Below, one piece after another: positions 31,203-36,385 of a stretch of 64,000 nt of DNA. A model generated the notes under the pieces. That model did no database searches. It was not told the origin of the DNA and was given only the letters and a program-made list of their open reading frames with translations. The stretch covers positions 1 to 64,000 of the forward strand of contig NZ_JAKMCS010000002.1 in assembly GCF_022662195.1 (NCBI RefSeq), read 5' to 3'. This stretch comes from Aestuariivivens insulae (lineage in GTDB: Bacteria > Bacteroidota > Bacteroidia > Flavobacteriales > Flavobacteriaceae). Position numbers and translations under genes: made by a program. The stretch's first letter is position 1, and the number at the start of each line of letters is the position of its first letter.

Positions 31203-31461
31203 GACCGATTTAGATAAAGCATTTGAAGAAGCCGTACAGCGGGTTAATGAGCATACCAAGCCGTTTCCTGCCGATACGCTATTAAAACTCTATGCCTATT
31301 ACAAAAAGGCCACAAACGATTATGGCAAGCCCCGTAGCAAAAAGCCCATTATTAATGCTTTTAAGACCAATGCCCTGTTTCAAGTTCAAAACATAAGCCC
31401 TAAAAAAGCCAAAAAGAAATATATTGAATTGGTAAACAACTACTTTCTATACCGAAAATAA
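31195..31461 (+). CDS. Acyl-CoA-binding protein
   Basis: 88 residues from the ATG at 31195 (overlapping the psd stop by 8 bp); a reading from 31168 would run deeper into psd. The four-helix ACBP pattern is clear: LDKAFEEAVQRVNEHTKPFP, then ADTLLKLYAYYKKATNDYGK and a final helix KAKKKYIELVNNYF. The canonical KWDAW is changed to INAFKT. ACBPs buffer and carry long-chain acyl-CoA in the cytosol. Its place after cdsA and psd suggests service to phospholipid synthesis. Confidence 0.88.
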   Translation: MSKTDLDKAFEEAVQRVNEHTKPFPADTLLKLYAYYKKATNDYGKPRSKKPIINAFKTNALFQVQNISPKKAKKKYIELVNNYFLYRK

Positions 31462-31542
31462 TACTTAACAACATAAATCTTGGGCAAGGAATTTTCGCCA
31501 GTTAGCGTTCCAATAACAAGAAAATTTATAGATTTAAAGCAC

Positions 31543-31585
31543 TTCTCGATACATACCAACAGCAAACGTCGGTACACTCGAAGAC
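31543..31585 (+). repeat. Solitary decayed REP-like element (A' type)
   Basis: TTCTCGATACATACC and then CAGCAAACGTCGG, ACACTCGAAGAC. It is the same palindrome type as the element at 32509, with several substitutions that weaken its inner CCGAC/GTCGG stem. It lies between the ACBP gene and convergent lipB. Confidence 0.7.
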
Positions 31586-31701
31586 AGAAGAGACATACTT
31601 ATTCTTAAACAAGATTCACGTTAATAGGCATACAATTCTGAAACAAGTTCCAACTCACTCGAACTAACATCCTGAATGCATTAAAAACCTGAAAGTTCAC
31701 G

Positions 31702-32409
31702 TTATACTTGTTCCACAAATTCAGCTTCGAAAAGTGCGGTAAAATGCTTTAGTAGTTTTGCTTTAACCTCTGCAATATCTACAGTTTCTACACCCAATTC
31801 AACATTTAAGGACGTTACGGCTTTACCACGAATACCACACGGAATGATGTTATCGAAATAGCCCAAATTGGCATTCACGTTAAGCGCGAACCCATGCATG
31901 GTTACCCACCTGCTGGCACGTACGCCCATAGCACAAATCTTACGGGCAAAGGGTGTTCCCACATCCAACCAAACCCCTGTCTCCCCTTTGCTTCGTGTCG
32001 CTTCAATACCATATTCGGCTAAGGTTAAAATAATCATCTCCTCTAAAAACCGGAGGTACTTGTGAATATCGGTAAAGAAATTTTCCAGGTCTAAAATGGG
32101 GTAGCCCACAATTTGCCCAGGACCATGGTAAGTAATATCGCCACCGCGATTTATTTTATAAAACACAGCTCCCTTTTCAGTTAGCTGCTGTTCATTTAAA
32201 AGCAAATTGGACAAATCGCCACTTTTACCTAAAGTATACACATGCGGATGCTCTACAAACAAAAAGTAGTTATTGGTCTTTAAGTTGGTATTGGTTCGTC
32301 TATTGCTAATTTTTGTATCAACAATACCTTTAAACAATTCCTCTTGATAATCCCAGGTTTGTTTATAGTCTTTATACCCTAAATCCTGCAGTGTAATTTG
32401 CTTATTCAT
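31702..32409 (-). CDS. lipB: Octanoyl-[ACP]:protein N-octanoyltransferase
   Basis: 235 residues from the ATG at 32409; the promoter element at 32416 excludes the TTG at 32418. LipB moves octanoate from acyl carrier protein to lipoyl domains. RGGDITYHGPGQIVGYPIL (about 80-98) is the classic signature. The catalytic Lys lies in ARKICAMGVR and the Cys in IIPCGIRGKAVTSL. Length is normal. It borders the REP array, which begins about 100 bp upstream of its start. Confidence 0.95.
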   Translation of the reverse strand: MNKQITLQDLGYKDYKQTWDYQEELFKGIVDTKISNRRTNTNLKTNNYFLFVEHPHVYTLGKSGDLSNLLLNEQQLTEKGAVFYKINRGGDITYHGPGQIVGYPILDLENFFTDIHKYLRFLEEMIILTLAEYGIEATRSKGETGVWLDVGTPFARKICAMGVRASRWVTMHGFALNVNANLGYFDNIIPCGIRGKAVTSLNVELGVETVDIAEVKAKLLKHFTALFEAEFVEQV

Positions 32410-32415
32410 AGGCTG

Positions 32416-32423
32416 CAAAAGTA
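32416..32423 (-). promoter_or_regulatory. -7 promoter element of lipB, leaderless spacing
   Basis: Reads TACTTTTG on the minus strand with 6 nt before the ATG at 32409. Confidence 0.6.
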
Positions 32424-32508
32424 CATGAAATTTTTCATTTGATTTTTGTGAACTTTCACACAGATCTCCCTACCAAGAGGCATATAAAAATTTTAGTCTT
32501 TTATAATA

Positions 32509-33249
32509 GTTCTCGATACATCCCGACAGTAAACGTCGGTACACTCGACACTGACATCTGCAGACTTTATAAGTTAATAAATGCTTGTCACTTCGAGTGG
32601 TTTTACGGAACAGAGTGGAGTAAAATTGTACTTCGGTCCTGCTCAGCAGAACTATCGAGAAGCTTTTACAACTTCTAGTGGTTTTACGGAACAGAGCGGA
32701 GTAAAATTGTACTTCGGCTCTGCTAAGTAGAGCCATCGAGAAACTCCTTGCCGACAGGTTGATAAAAATTTCAGCCTTTAAATAGTTCTCGATACTAAAT
32801 ACGTCGTACCTCCGTATTTCACTCGAACTGACAACAACAGACTTTATAAGTTAATAAAAGCTTGTCACTTCGAGTGGTTTTACGGAACAATTGTACTTCG
32901 ACTCTGCTCAGCAGAACTATCGAGAAGTAAAGAGAAATCTCTATATTTAAAACATGAAAACCTACTATGTTTACATTCTCAAATGCTCAGACAACACCTA
33001 CTATACAGGAATTACTTCAAACCTAGAAAAGAGGCTTATTGAACACCAATCTGGGAAACATAAAGATAGCTATACCTATTCCAGAAGACCTTTACACCTT
33101 GTGTTTTATGCTGAATTTACGCAGCCTGAAATCGCTATTACAACAGAAAAGCAAATCAAAAAATGGTCCAGGGCTAAAAAAGAAGCTTTAATCAATAACG
33201 AATTTGATAAATTGCCCAATCTTGCCAAGAAAAAGTTTCGTTCCAAATA
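32509..33249 (+). repeat. REP-GIY duplication, unit 1
   Basis: Order: A' element (32509-32556), B (32586-32662), B (32664-32743), A (32785-32833), B (32863-32927, lacking 12 bp), GIY-YIG gene. A elements begin GTTCTCGATAC, carry an inner AAATACG/CGTATTT stem, and end ACTCGAACTGACA. B elements begin TGTCACTTCGAG and end ATCGAGAAG, so their ends are the reverse complement of A ends. Their cores differ: B has TTTTAC/GTAAAA and CTGCTCAGCAG stems. The first A here has the alternative core CCGAC/GTCGG. Confidence 0.9.
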
Positions 33250-33250
33250 G
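32954..33250 (+). CDS. GIY-YIG nuclease, copy 1 (REP-associated)
   Basis: 98 residues, single-domain GIY-YIG (URI type, UPF0213-like). KTYYVYILKCSDNTYYTGIT (from residue 2) has the Tyr pair of the GIY...YIG strands; NLEKRLIEHQ supplies the conserved Arg, and the catalytic Glu lies in ITTEKQIKKW. These nucleases nick or cut DNA and are also found in homing endonucleases and transposable elements. The protein is identical to copy 2. It is flanked on both sides by inverted palindromic elements; the last base of its TAG stop is the first base of the next A element. The 26-bp leader is shared with copy 2. No other gene is in the unit. Confidence 0.9.
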   Translation: MKTYYVYILKCSDNTYYTGITSNLEKRLIEHQSGKHKDSYTYSRRPLHLVFYAEFTQPEIAITTEKQIKKWSRAKKEALINNEFDKLPNLAKKKFRSK

Positions 33251-34001
33251 TTCTCGATACTAAATACGTCGTACCTCCGTATTTCACTCGAACTGACATC
33301 AACAGACATTATAAGTTTATAAAAGCTTGTCATTTCGAGTGGTTTTACGGAACAGAGTGGAGTAAAATTGTACTTCGACCCTGCTCAGCAGAACTATCGA
33401 GAAGCTTGTCACTTCGAGTGGTTTTACGGAACAGAGTGGAGTAAAATTGCACTTCGACCCTGCTAAGTAGAGCCATCGAGAAACTCCTTGCCGACAGGTT
33501 GATTAAAATTTCAGCCTTTAAATAGTTCTCGATACTAAATACGTCGTACCTCCGTATTTCACTCGAACTGACATCAGCAGACTTTATACGTTAATAAATG
33601 CTTGTCACTTCTAGGGGTTTTACGGAACAGAGTGGAGTAAAATTGTACTTCGGTCCTGCTCAGCAGAACTATCGAGAAGTAAAGAGAAATCTCTATATTT
33701 AAAACATGAAAACCTACTATGTTTACATTCTCAAATGCTCAGACAACACCTACTATACAGGAATTACTTCAAACCTAGAAAAGAGGCTTATTGAACACCA
33801 ATCTGGGAAACATAAAGATAGCTATACCTATTCCAGAAGACCTTTACACCTTGTGTTTTATGCTGAATTTACGCAGCCTGAAATCGCTATTACAACAGAA
33901 AAGCAAATCAAAAAATGGTCTAGGGCTAAAAAAGAAGCCCTAATCAATAACGAATTTGATAAATTGCCCAATCTTGCCAAGAAAAAGTTTCGTTCCAAAT
34001 A
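33250..34001 (+). repeat. REP-GIY duplication, unit 2
   Basis: Same order as unit 1, shifted by about 740-752 bp: A (33250-33298), B (33328-33404), B (33407-33483), A (33525-33573), B (33603-33679), GIY-YIG gene. The B before the gene keeps the 12 bp that unit 1 has lost. The segment with CTTGCCGACAGGTTGAT between B and A is also shared. High identity indicates recent duplication. Confidence 0.9.
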
Positions 34002-34002
34002 G
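33706..34002 (+). CDS. GIY-YIG nuclease, copy 2 (REP-associated)
   Basis: 98 residues, identical in protein sequence to the copy at 32954. Only a few silent changes are visible in the DNA (for example TGGTCC to TGGTCT and GCTTTA to GCCCTA in the last quarter), which points to recent duplication with selection or very short divergence time. The catalytic Tyr, Arg and Glu residues are intact, so both copies should be active. The stop codon again runs directly into an A element. Presence of two intact copies argues against decay. Confidence 0.9.
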   Translation: MKTYYVYILKCSDNTYYTGITSNLEKRLIEHQSGKHKDSYTYSRRPLHLVFYAEFTQPEIAITTEKQIKKWSRAKKEALINNEFDKLPNLAKKKFRSK

Positions 34003-34050
34003 TTCTCGATACTAAATACGTCGTACCTCCGCATTTCACTCGAACTGACA
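34002..34050 (+). repeat. Closing A-type REP element
   Basis: The fifth A-type element, GTTCTCGATACTAAATACG to CGAACTGACA, directly after GIY-YIG copy 2. One base differs in its inner stem (GCATTT for GTATTT). A stub CTGTCACTTATAC at about 34077 may be the start of a lost B element. Confidence 0.85.
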
Positions 34051-34207
34051 ACGACAGACTTTTAAAGTAAAAAAAACTGTCACTTATACTCTCTCTTTTA
34101 AAGTGGAGTGAATTCATTATGTGGAAACGGCATAAAGACGAGGTGGTAAAAAAACTGCTCCTTGGCAATTGATAATTATTTGGCAGCTTTATCTTCCAAC
34201 TTCCTGC

Positions 34208-34280
34208 ACCCCGCAAAAGTGATAGGAGCGACAGCTTTTTTAAAATCCAAAATTTTAAAAAACTATAGCGGATAGCACGG
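34208..34280 (+). other. Candidate structured RNA or intergenic element, copy 2
   Basis: Parts in the same order as at 62-170: ACCCCGC (34208-34214), half-site GATAGGAGCGACAGC (34221-34235), a perfect 11-bp hairpin (34236-34246 with 34252-34262; TTTTTTAAAAT/ATTTTAAAAAA), and half-site CTATAGCGGATAGCACGG (34263-34280). The stem is AT-only here and GC-rich in copy 1, while half-sites keep the pattern GAnnGnAnCGnCA ... TAGnGnAwAGC. It lies between the REP array and the YqaE gene. Function unknown. Confidence 0.45.
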
Positions 34281-34358
34281 TGGCTTGCCATTTGCCATAA
34301 AACCTTTGGCAAAAATGATGTATCGATTCCTCTTTTAAATGAAAAAAGCTTAAATAAA

Positions 34359-34517
34359 TTAACGGTTGGGGTTGTTAAGAATAACCAACGCCGCTATCAC
34401 CCCGGGCACCCAGCCACAAAGCCATAACAAGAACACTATAAATATAGAGCCACAACCTTTATCTATAACCGCTAAAGGGGGGCATATAATAGACAGTAAA
34501 ACTCTCCAGAAACTCAT
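34359..34517 (-). CDS. YqaE/Pmp3-family small membrane protein
   Basis: 52 residues: MSFWRVLLSIICPPLAVID, then KGCGSIFIVFLLWLCGWVPG and VIAALVILNNPNR. Two membrane helices joined by a short turn, with the CPPLAV and W-x-PG-x-IAA motifs diagnostic of the Pmp3/YqaE family (PF01679). Homologues help membrane potential or stress tolerance in yeast and plants; in bacteria they are often stress induced. The gene is below usual length limits. It is divergent from the LuxR-type regulator at 34658, with about 140 bp between. Confidence 0.9.
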   Translation of the reverse strand: MSFWRVLLSIICPPLAVIDKGCGSIFIVFLLWLCGWVPGVIAALVILNNPNR

Positions 34518-34645
34518 GAATTTTTTATTTTTTTGATTGATTGATACTCGTTTGACGCAAACCCTTAGTACTTGTTACAGTTTATCGAAATTTATTCTAA
34601 ACTACTAAATTTTTAGTCTTGGCTAATTCATTCAAAGAAAATAGT

Positions 34646-34653
34646 TAGTTTCG
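34646..34653 (+). promoter_or_regulatory. Promoter-like element directly before the LuxR-type gene
   Basis: TAGTTTCG (7 of 8 to TAnnTTTG) with 4 nt before the ATG at 34658, a leaderless spacing. Confidence 0.45.
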
Positions 34654-34657
34654 TAAT

Positions 34658-35716
34658 ATGAATGTACGTCAATATATTTTTGTGCTATTCCTTATATCGG
34701 GTTATGCCAATGCCCAATATAAATTTTCTGGGCAAATTGATAAAAATAAATGGCACGATAATGTGTACCTCTCCATTATAGACGATTACAGGCACCTGTC
34801 TGGGATTTATGAAGAACAGATTATTGATAAGGTTAAAGCAGATGCTAACGGCTACTTCGAATTTACCGGCAATATGCTAGAGGACAATTATCGCATCTAT
34901 AGAATACATGTCGATAACTGTACGGAAGACCTCCCTGACAACACCCATTTTAACGGCCATTGCGATGATAGTAAGGCCATACTGTTTATTGCAAAACGCA
35001 CCGACACCCTGCAGTTTCCGTTTTCTTTCGACCACCAAATGTTTTGCGATGTGAAATCGAAAAACGAAAAGGCCCTGTCCCTTATTAAAATAGACTCCCT
35101 TATCGATGAAATGAAATATGCCTATAGTGCGTTTAGGAGTGAAGCCAACAGGACACTGAACAACAAAAAATGGTTTAAAACATTACAGGATTTTGGCCAA
35201 AGCCTTAATGAACCCCTGGCGGAACTTTATATCTACACTTACCTTTCGGACAGAAGAAATAGCCTGCACCAGTATTATTTGGAAGATTTAAAGACCAACC
35301 CCTTTTACGAAGACTTACTTAAAAAATTGACAGCGGCCTACCCTAACGCTACTTATACCCAACAATACCGTAACGAATTGAATTCTGATGAGTTTATTCT
35401 CGACAGAGGGGTCGAAAACAAGGCTTTTAACTGGAATTACCTGCTATATGGCTTACTCTTTGTCTCCATAGTGGCTAATATACTTTTGCTTGTGTCCTTT
35501 AAAAAATTCAAGAAACGGATGTCTAACAACAGTAAAGAGCAATTGACACGGCAAGAGCAGAATATTCTAAATTTATTACTGGAAGACAAATCGAATAAAG
35601 AAATAGCCGATGCCCTTTTTGTAAGCCTAAGCACCGTAAAAACCCATGTAAACAACATTTACAGGAAGTTAAACGTACAAAACAGAAATGAAGCTAAGTC
35701 ATTGTTTAACAAATAA
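34658..35716 (+). CDS. Membrane-tethered LuxR-type transcription regulator
   Basis: 352 residues. A signal peptide (1-19, ending ANAQ) leads to a periplasmic domain (about 20-255) rich in aromatic residues with Cys pairs (DNCTEDL, HCDDSK, FCDVK). One membrane segment (about 262-282) follows and then a cytoplasmic LuxR/GerE HTH: LTRQEQNILNLLLEDKSNKE and then IADALFVSLSTVKTHVNNIY and RKLNVQNRNEA. The layout makes it a one-component sensor that binds DNA while anchored in the membrane. The ligand is unknown. It is divergent from yqaE and just upstream of a DUF1573 gene. Confidence 0.82.
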   Translation: MNVRQYIFVLFLISGYANAQYKFSGQIDKNKWHDNVYLSIIDDYRHLSGIYEEQIIDKVKADANGYFEFTGNMLEDNYRIYRIHVDNCTEDLPDNTHFNGHCDDSKAILFIAKRTDTLQFPFSFDHQMFCDVKSKNEKALSLIKIDSLIDEMKYAYSAFRSEANRTLNNKKWFKTLQDFGQSLNEPLAELYIYTYLSDRRNSLHQYYLEDLKTNPFYEDLLKKLTAAYPNATYTQQYRNELNSDEFILDRGVENKAFNWNYLLYGLLFVSIVANILLLVSFKKFKKRMSNNSKEQLTRQEQNILNLLLEDKSNKEIADALFVSLSTVKTHVNNIYRKLNVQNRNEAKSLFNK

Positions 35717-36338: not shown

Positions 36339-36385
36339 TGTCAGTTCGAGTGTCCCGACGTTTACTGTCGGGACGTATCGAGAAC
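36339..36385 (-). repeat. Solitary REP-like element (A' type, inverted)
   Basis: TGTCAGTTCGAGTGTCCCGA to CGGGACGTATCGAGAAC: the reverse complement of the A' element at 32509, with a perfect inner CCCGAC/GTCGGG stem. It is far from any GIY-YIG gene, in the spacer before lysS. Confidence 0.85.

Follow-up and report, generated by a model that had tools for sequence, protein, structure and literature searches.

Small GIY-YIG nucleases as candidate partners of CGTC/TGTC-tagged REP elements

A stretch of 64,000 nucleotides at the start of a 403-kb contig of Aestuariivivens insulae (Flavobacteriaceae; NZ_JAKMCS010000002.1; genome 4.23 Mb), hereafter the window, contains two GIY-YIG nuclease genes and 11 palindromic elements between lipB and a stretch conserved in congeners. 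Genes and repeats of these kinds also stand side by side in other genomes of the family and in other phyla. We propose that GIY-YIG nucleases are the partners of CGTC/TGTC-tagged repetitive extragenic palindromic (REP) elements as REP-associated tyrosine transposases (RAYTs) are of GTAG REPs, and we regard them as strong candidates for an enzyme so far missing from the picture, one that would spread or maintain a large class of bacterial repeats. For the window itself, we put at about 0.64 the probability that the repeats flanking the GIY-YIG gene have its product as their dedicated nuclease and are CGTC/TGTC-tagged REPs.

The array reads A-B-B-A-B-gene-A-B-B-A-B-gene-A, with A1, B2, and B6 degenerate (Table 1). 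A first-pass annotation of this DNA had described two identical 98-residue GIY-YIG proteins in a tandem repeat with palindromes touching the genes, and both points were confirmed: the gene copies differ at 3/297 DNA positions and encode identical proteins, the direct repeats are spaced at 752 bp, the element downstream of copy 1 begins on the G of its TAG stop (33250), and 26 bp separate the ATG from the end of the element upstream. Its description of two palindrome types in alternation stands as far as the array is concerned and falls on two particulars, strict alternation and the separateness of the types. A and B elements have the same tips (TTCTCGATA...CACTCGAA) and the same TGTCA foot, lie in opposite orientation, and differ in their inner stem-loops; we therefore reject two unrelated palindromes and treat A and B as one family in opposite orientations.

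The protein carries a complete set of catalytic-type residues. Pfam gives only PF01541 (GIY-YIG, E = 3.3e-17) for it, with no match to the HUH/Y1 transposase domain PF01797, and the Protein Data Bank gives two matches, 1zg2 (E = 2.3e-14) and 1ywl (E = 8.5e-10). Y7, Y17, G19, R27, and E65 are invariant in 22 aligned proteins. We take Y7, Y17, R27, and E65 to be the catalytic Tyr, Tyr, Arg, and Glu positions of the GIY-YIG domain, and because these residues are invariant the enzyme looks active. An Rfam scan of 31400–34700 returned no group I intron or other intron family at E <= 1 and no family name for the elements.

Gene–element adjacency and element structure

Elements adjoin the gene throughout its close relatives. 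Relatives were gathered by protein similarity alone (the best 80 of 393, giving 79 loci at 68–87% identity), and a sequence with at most 2 mismatches in the two tips was counted as an element. An element lies within 200 bp of the gene in 79/79 loci (upstream in 77, downstream in 78, on both sides in 76), compared with 87 elements in 443,743 bp of background beyond 1 kb, or 0.039 per 200 bp; the gene is thus not usually found free of elements, the outcome that the first-pass annotation had named as a sign of accidental linkage. The feet of the flanking elements point outward in 52 loci, inward in 14, and in the same direction in 10, with 3 loci having an element on one side only, and 66/76 both-sided loci have flanking elements in opposite orientation. 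At 46/78 loci the downstream element begins 5 bp or less from the stop codon, always in the same orientation, and at 16 it comes directly after it. Inner stem-loops vary from locus to locus, so adjacency has been kept while the sequence turned over.

An element that abuts a stop codon, as in those 46 loci, resembles a terminator, and it may be asked whether the gene serves host housekeeping, either with the nuclease clearing REP hairpins or cruciforms or with REPs at the stop and start merely terminating or regulating its mRNA. PMC7017083 treats Slx1, to whose family YhbQ is said to belong, as a nuclease that selects its substrates by structure, which would suit such a role. We nevertheless judge it improbable, given that the upstream copies are opposite in orientation with their feet outside in 52/79 loci and that patchy presence, insertion polymorphism, and broken copies (below) are ill-suited to a housekeeping gene.

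The element stem is real, as covariation demonstrates. Read from the foot, an element consists of an unpaired [C/T]GTCA followed by two arms, NTTCGAGTG and then GTATCGAGAAN, with a variable stem-loop between them; a search of the 4.23-Mb genome with the exact-tip pattern gave 57 matches, versus 0 for a reversed-pattern control. The loci of the 79 relatives supplied 448 exact-tip elements. Their outermost bases are Watson-Crick paired in 415 (shuffled mean 210), mostly as C-G or G-C, and their second pair is likewise complementary in all but a few (440; shuffled mean 393), rare types including CA/TG (9), GA/TC (4), and GG/CC (2). The unpaired foot, TGAC on the read strand (= GTCA), is present in 416/448 elements, and most elements at the 79 loci end in TGACA or TGACG.

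Elements are also arranged in inverted pairs. Neighbors at most 80 bp apart in the 79 loci are inverted in 188/217 cases, 105 with feet inward and 83 with feet outward, and inverted neighbors are mostly of opposite outer type (90/105 feet-inward pairs, 70/83 feet-outward pairs, and 45/50 inverted gene-flanking pairs). We read the opposite outer types as stopping the hairpins of a dimer from cross-pairing, or as marking left and right ends. A preference for heterodimers "has no obvious explanation" according to the excerpted text of Di Nocera et al. 2013 (PMC3733652).

Presence, absence, and insertion across genomes

Presence of the gene predicts presence of the elements. In a survey of 249 genomes of the family, with a match at E <= 1e-30 defining gene presence and exact tips defining elements, elements occur in 50/51 gene-positive and 62/198 gene-negative genomes (Fisher P = 7e-20; medians 8 versus 0), and the reversed control pattern gave one match each in 5/249 genomes. 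Genomes without the gene are therefore poorer in elements, contrary to the equal abundance that the first-pass annotation would have taken as grounds for dismissing the link. When 22 of the 31 gene-negative genomes having four or more elements were re-searched, 20/22 proved to have a more distant or broken GIY-YIG match (E <= 1e-6). A second pair, CGTC-1-type elements with the protein of the L007 type, is likewise associated (18/31 versus 26/218 genomes at E <= 1e-30, P = 4e-8; 16/20 versus 28/229 at E <= 1e-40, a cut-off picked post hoc from the list), and a CGTC-1-type element lies at most 21 bp from the L007-type gene in seven of eight checkable genomes and at 85 bp in one. In a joint model, window-type elements have log-odds of 4.64 for their own gene versus 1.26 for the other.

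The same survey bears on whether a third enzyme, a RAYT or IS200-like Y1 transposase, moves the REPs while the GIY-YIG gene hitchhikes. Y1_Tnp genes are present in 59/249 family genomes (E <= 1e-8) and associate weakly with elements (35/59 versus 77/190, P = 0.016), and the excerpted text of PMC6006769 describes a Bacteroidetes TnpA-Y1 subclass flanked by atypical secondary structures that have copies elsewhere in the genome. In the 190 genomes without Y1, however, the GIY-YIG gene still predicts elements (34/35 versus 43/155, P = 5e-15), exact element tips are absent from the 2.8 and 3.3 kb examined at this genome's two Y1 loci, and Di Nocera et al. 2013 (PMC3733652) found CGTC sequences flanking no tyrosine transposase gene. 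Hitchhiking of this kind seems to us very improbable. A RAYT as main mover was rejected on the tip-free Y1 loci, the weak Y1 association, and the GIY-YIG effect in Y1-less genomes.

Gene and elements are polymorphic as insertions. Three congeners keep lipB and its neighbors and lack 32441 to ~34358 by blastn, and they also have no match for the stretch bearing the solitary element at 31543. In Azospirillum lipoferum, the gene with a REP dimer on each side lies between sufB and sufC, inside the suf operon (L163, 1992–2285), and four other Azospirillum species compared are without this insertion. Shinella sp. PSBB067 has a GIY-YIG match inside the sufB–sufC span, and two entries into the suf site, or loss in some lineages, may therefore have occurred. 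In Sphingomonas parapaucimobilis, a DUF559 gene is listed in that span. The Sinorhizobium meliloti gene between lpxB and gltA is missing in Sinorhizobium sp. C101, where REP-like sequence remains; because that sequence is kept, insertion and REP–REP deletion are indistinguishable at this site.

Units of gene and element have also been amplified locally. Contig C11 of the same genome (G000:C11:594479-595102, L010–L013) carries three truncated GIY-YIG tails with elements in a ~205-bp unit, a decayed array of the same system, and S. meliloti has a tandem of one gene and a truncated second copy. Such tandem gene-plus-REP units, here (752 bp), on C11 (~205 bp, three times, gene tails only), and in S. 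meliloti, are what might be expected of a selfish nuclease for which REPs are only a home, homing into REP sites or amplifying in tandem between them with no dispersal of the REPs. The REP-like sequence kept by the S. meliloti relative that lacks the gene points the same way, as do a sister GIY-YIG clade beside tRNA genes in 19/60 loci, which looks like site-specific homing, and the GIY-YIG enzyme SegB of phage T6, which drives tandem segmental amplification (PMC13096335, excerpted text). REP abundance, however, tracks gene presence genome-wide, beyond the gene's own site, and REP type tracks protein clade in part, and we consider a selfish nuclease of this sort rather unlikely.

Other GIY-YIG clades and the limits of the association

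Pairing of GIY-YIG genes with GTC-tagged repeats extends to other clades. In the genome of the window, paralogs L003, L005, L006, L007/L008, and L017 adjoin other GTC-footed repeats whose stem differs by type (by eye), and similar gene–repeat pairs are visible in other genomes of the family. The GTCATTCCTGC-loop-GCAGGAATCCA elements flanking L007/L008 have the features of CGTC REP families 1–4. Beyond the family, 60 loci were taken from the top of the list ranked by hidden Markov model score, one or few per genome, in other Bacteroidota families, and 19 tRNA-linked loci were set aside before the 41 others were tested. The upstream flank resembles the reverse-complemented downstream flank more closely than the 95th percentile of controls in 21/41 loci (P = 1.6e-10), the most enriched 6-mer is TGTCAT (18/41 versus 26/203, P = 1.7e-5 in 345 tested), and a REP-context rule, made after the loci had been seen, applies to 27/40 other-Bacteroidota loci versus 12/163 control genes.

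Similar repeats adjoin the gene in other phyla. Twelve of 34 plasmid-collection records were inspected, picked for diversity, and GTC-tagged REPs stand at the gene in 10/12: S. meliloti, A. lipoferum 4B, Neisseria gonorrhoeae, Novosphingobium aromaticivorans, Sphingobium, Aeromonas caviae, Planktothrix, Spirosoma, Neorhizobium, and Rhizobium sp. CIAT894. The records of Rhizobium tumorigenes and Photobacterium were labeled as having none at the gene, and E. coli K-12 yhbQ has no adjacent GTC-tagged REP by eye or by rule. We lean, at somewhat better than even odds, toward a broader reading in which small GIY-YIG nucleases serve as dedicated mobilizers of the entire CGTC/TGTC REP superfamily, across Bacteroidota and Pseudomonadota and, on the strength of a single record, in Cyanobacteriota.

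REP type tracks protein clade in part. We built a tree of 132 proteins comprising 27 of the 79 relatives, 12 of 19 own-genome matches, 22 of 30 loci from re-searched genomes, the 12 plasmid-collection records with E. coli yhbQ, and 58 of the 60 other-family loci (two rows below 60 residues were dropped, and open reading frames (ORFs) above 160 residues were cut to 110). Context labels change 29 times on this tree versus 67.4 times when shuffled (0/200 shuffles as low), in a tree that rests on 99 columns with 61/129 inner branches open and to whose clustering near relatives and taxonomy contribute. The window clade is one group of 29 rows, 28 of them with window-type elements, and the label "none" alone is not clearly clustered (25 versus 28.1 changes).

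All 20 tRNA-linked rows of the tree fall in one 27-row group. This second clade lies directly 3′ of tRNA genes, within 250 bp in 19/60 loci (L204–L263; 25 tRNAs in all 60), and in the genome of the window L011 (by ARAGORN) and L015 and L016 (by eye) are tRNA-adjacent. In 7/19 loci a copy of the last 25 tRNA bases, mismatched at 2 positions or fewer, lies no more than 400 bp beyond the gene; partial copies were seen by eye in others, and the clade is possibly a minimal tRNA-targeting element. At L004 (514–1782, minus strand), a GIY-YIG domain is fused in frame to a region of ~300 residues that Pfam does not name above its cut-off and that, judged by eye, resembles a GHMP kinase; long frames occur also at L132, L152, and L154.

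Several results weigh against the proposed partnership. Elements are carried by 62/198 gene-negative genomes, and two of these, G070 (26 elements) and G093 (7), have no GIY-YIG match at E <= 1e-6; elements are thus able to persist, or to move, where the gene is absent. Conversely, the gene-positive genome G124 has no exact-tip elements. Specificity between gene and element is only partial: the window-type gene is also associated with CGTC-1 elements (22/51 versus 22/198), the L007-type gene with window-type elements (23/31 versus 89/218), and the joint model for CGTC-1 elements gives log-odds of 2.23 for their own gene versus 1.72 for the other. The 79 loci are not independent, because the clade has common ancestry. 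Comparisons with congeners, Azospirillum, and Sinorhizobium yielded no target-site duplication or exact empty site, the congeneric flanks being too diverged for a target-site duplication and the Azospirillum intergenic borders having diverged, and the local tandem arrangement of several gene copies suggests that movement of the gene itself may be rare. The structural claim rests on covariation because the folding energy of single window-type elements is not clearly better than that of shuffles (z −1.4 to +0.3) and is strong only for the CGTC-1 type (z −5.6).

To these may be added results from the other clades. The automatic rule agrees with the reading by eye that L007 and L008 adjoin REPs but labels L003, L005, and L006 "none". 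Among the 41 loci of other Bacteroidota families, the top 5-mers GTCAT (30/41 versus 83/203) and TGTCA (25/41 versus 61/203) have P ~1e-4 in 444 tested, which does not clearly withstand correction, and another motif, TGTAAGG, leads among the 7-mers. Enrichment of the tagged hairpin is modest at stem 7 (9/41 versus 11/133, P = 0.024), as is that of a tag-and-hairpin score of 8 (9/41 versus 6/169 outside the family), and at a score of 9 there is no difference outside the family (1/41 versus 2/169).

As an observation in its own right, TGTAAGG/CCTTACA is present in 11/41 GIY-YIG flanks versus 6/203 controls, and at L232, L233, L234, L238, L241, L254, L258, and L261 a GTAAG...CTTAC inverted repeat was seen by eye between the upstream REP and the start codon, possibly a means of autoregulation. 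Within the segment of the window that the congeners lack, Rfam gives a match to Flavo-1 RNA (RF01705) at 34219–34279 (43.6 bits versus a gathering score of 42, E = 2.3e-7).

Table 1. Coordinates of genes and elements around the GIY-YIG array, numbered from the first base of the window
Feature	Position	Strand	Basis
lipB	31702–32418		identity read from ORF
Solitary family element beyond lipB, within ~31464–31701, which is unmatched in three congeners	31543–31582	+	exact-tip pattern
Segment with no match at the same place in three congeneric genomes	32441–34358 (right border 34352–34358)		blastn alignment stops after 32440 and restarts at 34353 or 34359
A1 element, right arm degenerate	32509–32554	+	read by eye; left tip matched
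B1 element, TGTCA foot, TTCGAGTG...ATCGAGAA	32586–32662	-	read by eye and tip match
B2 element, left tip degenerate, ends approximate	32667–32743	-	read by eye and tip match
A2 element, exact tips	32785–32833	+	read by eye and exact-tip pattern
B3 element, ends 26 bp before first gene	32863–32927	-	read by eye and tip match
GIY-YIG nuclease gene, copy 1, 98 residues	32954–33250	+	ORF and Pfam
A3 element, first base is last base of copy 1 TAG stop	33250–33298	+	read by eye and exact-tip pattern
B4 element	33328–33404	-	read by eye and tip match
B5 element	33407–33483	-	read by eye and tip match
A4 element, exact tips	33525–33573	+	read by eye and exact-tip pattern
B6 element, left tip degenerate	33603–33679	-	read by eye and tip match
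GIY-YIG nuclease gene, copy 2, protein identical to copy 1	33706–34002	+	ORF and DNA comparison
A5 element, first base common to copy 2 stop codon	34002–34050	+	read by eye and exact-tip pattern
Solitary element of the same family	36345–36384	-	exact-tip pattern

Proposed mechanism and comparison with known systems

We infer that the GIY-YIG protein binds, cleaves, and mobilizes the elements. The enzyme would recognize hairpin and foot together as a structure, in DNA that is single-stranded or extruded, and would nick the DNA in or close to the foot. Since cleavage by GIY-YIG enzymes is hydrolytic and leaves the ends unjoined, new copies would come from host repair and recombination on REP copies, which could produce dispersed REPs, REP dimers, and local tandem amplification. 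Different GIY-YIG clades may serve different REP types. If this is correct, there has been a second, independent origin of a REP-plus-nuclease system beside that of GTAG REPs and RAYTs, filling a gap stated in 2013, and nucleases of unrelated fold have on two occasions taken up the same lifestyle. Many annotations reading "GIY-YIG nuclease family protein" would gain a concrete hypothesis, and with a cognate nuclease beside such repeats in distant bacteria, their origin and mobility become testable in ordinary laboratory strains.

That gap was described by Di Nocera et al. 2013 (PMC3733652), who, in the excerpted text, defined GTAG REPs with RAYTs, wrote that CGTC REPs "apparently lack a dedicated transposase", and, having found CGTC REPs in five phyla and no enzyme, suggested its possible loss. 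The first-pass annotation had seen a RAYT-like layout with a nuclease of a different fold and knew of no description of a GIY-YIG protein in that role; it was right about the layout, which extends beyond this family to other clades and other phyla. Our full-text literature search found no link between GIY-YIG proteins and REPs among the matches listed, judged by title and the start of the abstract, with preprints and most subscription papers outside its coverage. On the strength of that search, the partnership is probably unreported.

The window system resembles RAYT/TnpA-REP systems (REPtrons, REPINs, and bacterial interspersed mosaic elements) in having a small nuclease gene flanked by inverted REPs (76/79 loci both-sided), REP dimers, dispersed copies, and enzyme clades tied to REP types. 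It differs in that the enzyme is GIY-YIG and not HUH/Y1, and in that the foot is [C/T]GTC(A) and not GT[AG]G. A covalent intermediate is not expected of GIY-YIG enzymes, so the chemistry must differ as well.

With the CGTC REPs of PMC3733652, as its excerpts describe them, the elements have in common an unpaired CGTC/TGTC foot beside a hairpin, dimers, and heterodimers, and the two surveys coincide in Neisseria (dRS3), S. meliloti, A. lipoferum, and N. aromaticivorans; where our loci have a GIY-YIG gene, that paper reports no associated transposase. CGTC REP families 1–4 are characterized there by an 8–9-bp stem starting A-T, a loop of 4–5, and a CCA-like tail, and the window elements fall outside them, starting C-G or G-C and then T-A. 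Their bulged outer stem, long inner stem-loop, and lack of a CCA tail lead us to class them as a further CGTC variant. Inverted dimers occur in both, but those in the excerpted text are mainly feet-outward (head-to-head, HH), whereas 105 are inward and 83 outward here.

Like UPF0213/COG2827 proteins (E. coli YhbQ; structures 1ZG2 and 1YWL), the window protein is a single GIY-YIG domain of ~100 residues; unlike the window gene, E. coli K-12 yhbQ, whose RefSeq name is DNA damage response nuclease, stands without an adjacent GTC-tagged REP. We take the window protein to belong to COG2827. Caulobacter crescentus, one of the species that PMC3733652 counts as CGTC-positive, has three COG2827 genes according to PMC1839093. 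The free-standing GIY-YIG homing endonuclease SegB of phage T6 is likewise a nuclease tied to tandem amplification by recombination; in the excerpted text of PMC13096335 its targets are tRNA-containing and other phage loci and, unlike in the window system, no flanking REP family is mentioned. By analogy, SegB shows that a GIY-YIG cut can drive tandem amplification via recombination (PMC13096335, same excerpts).

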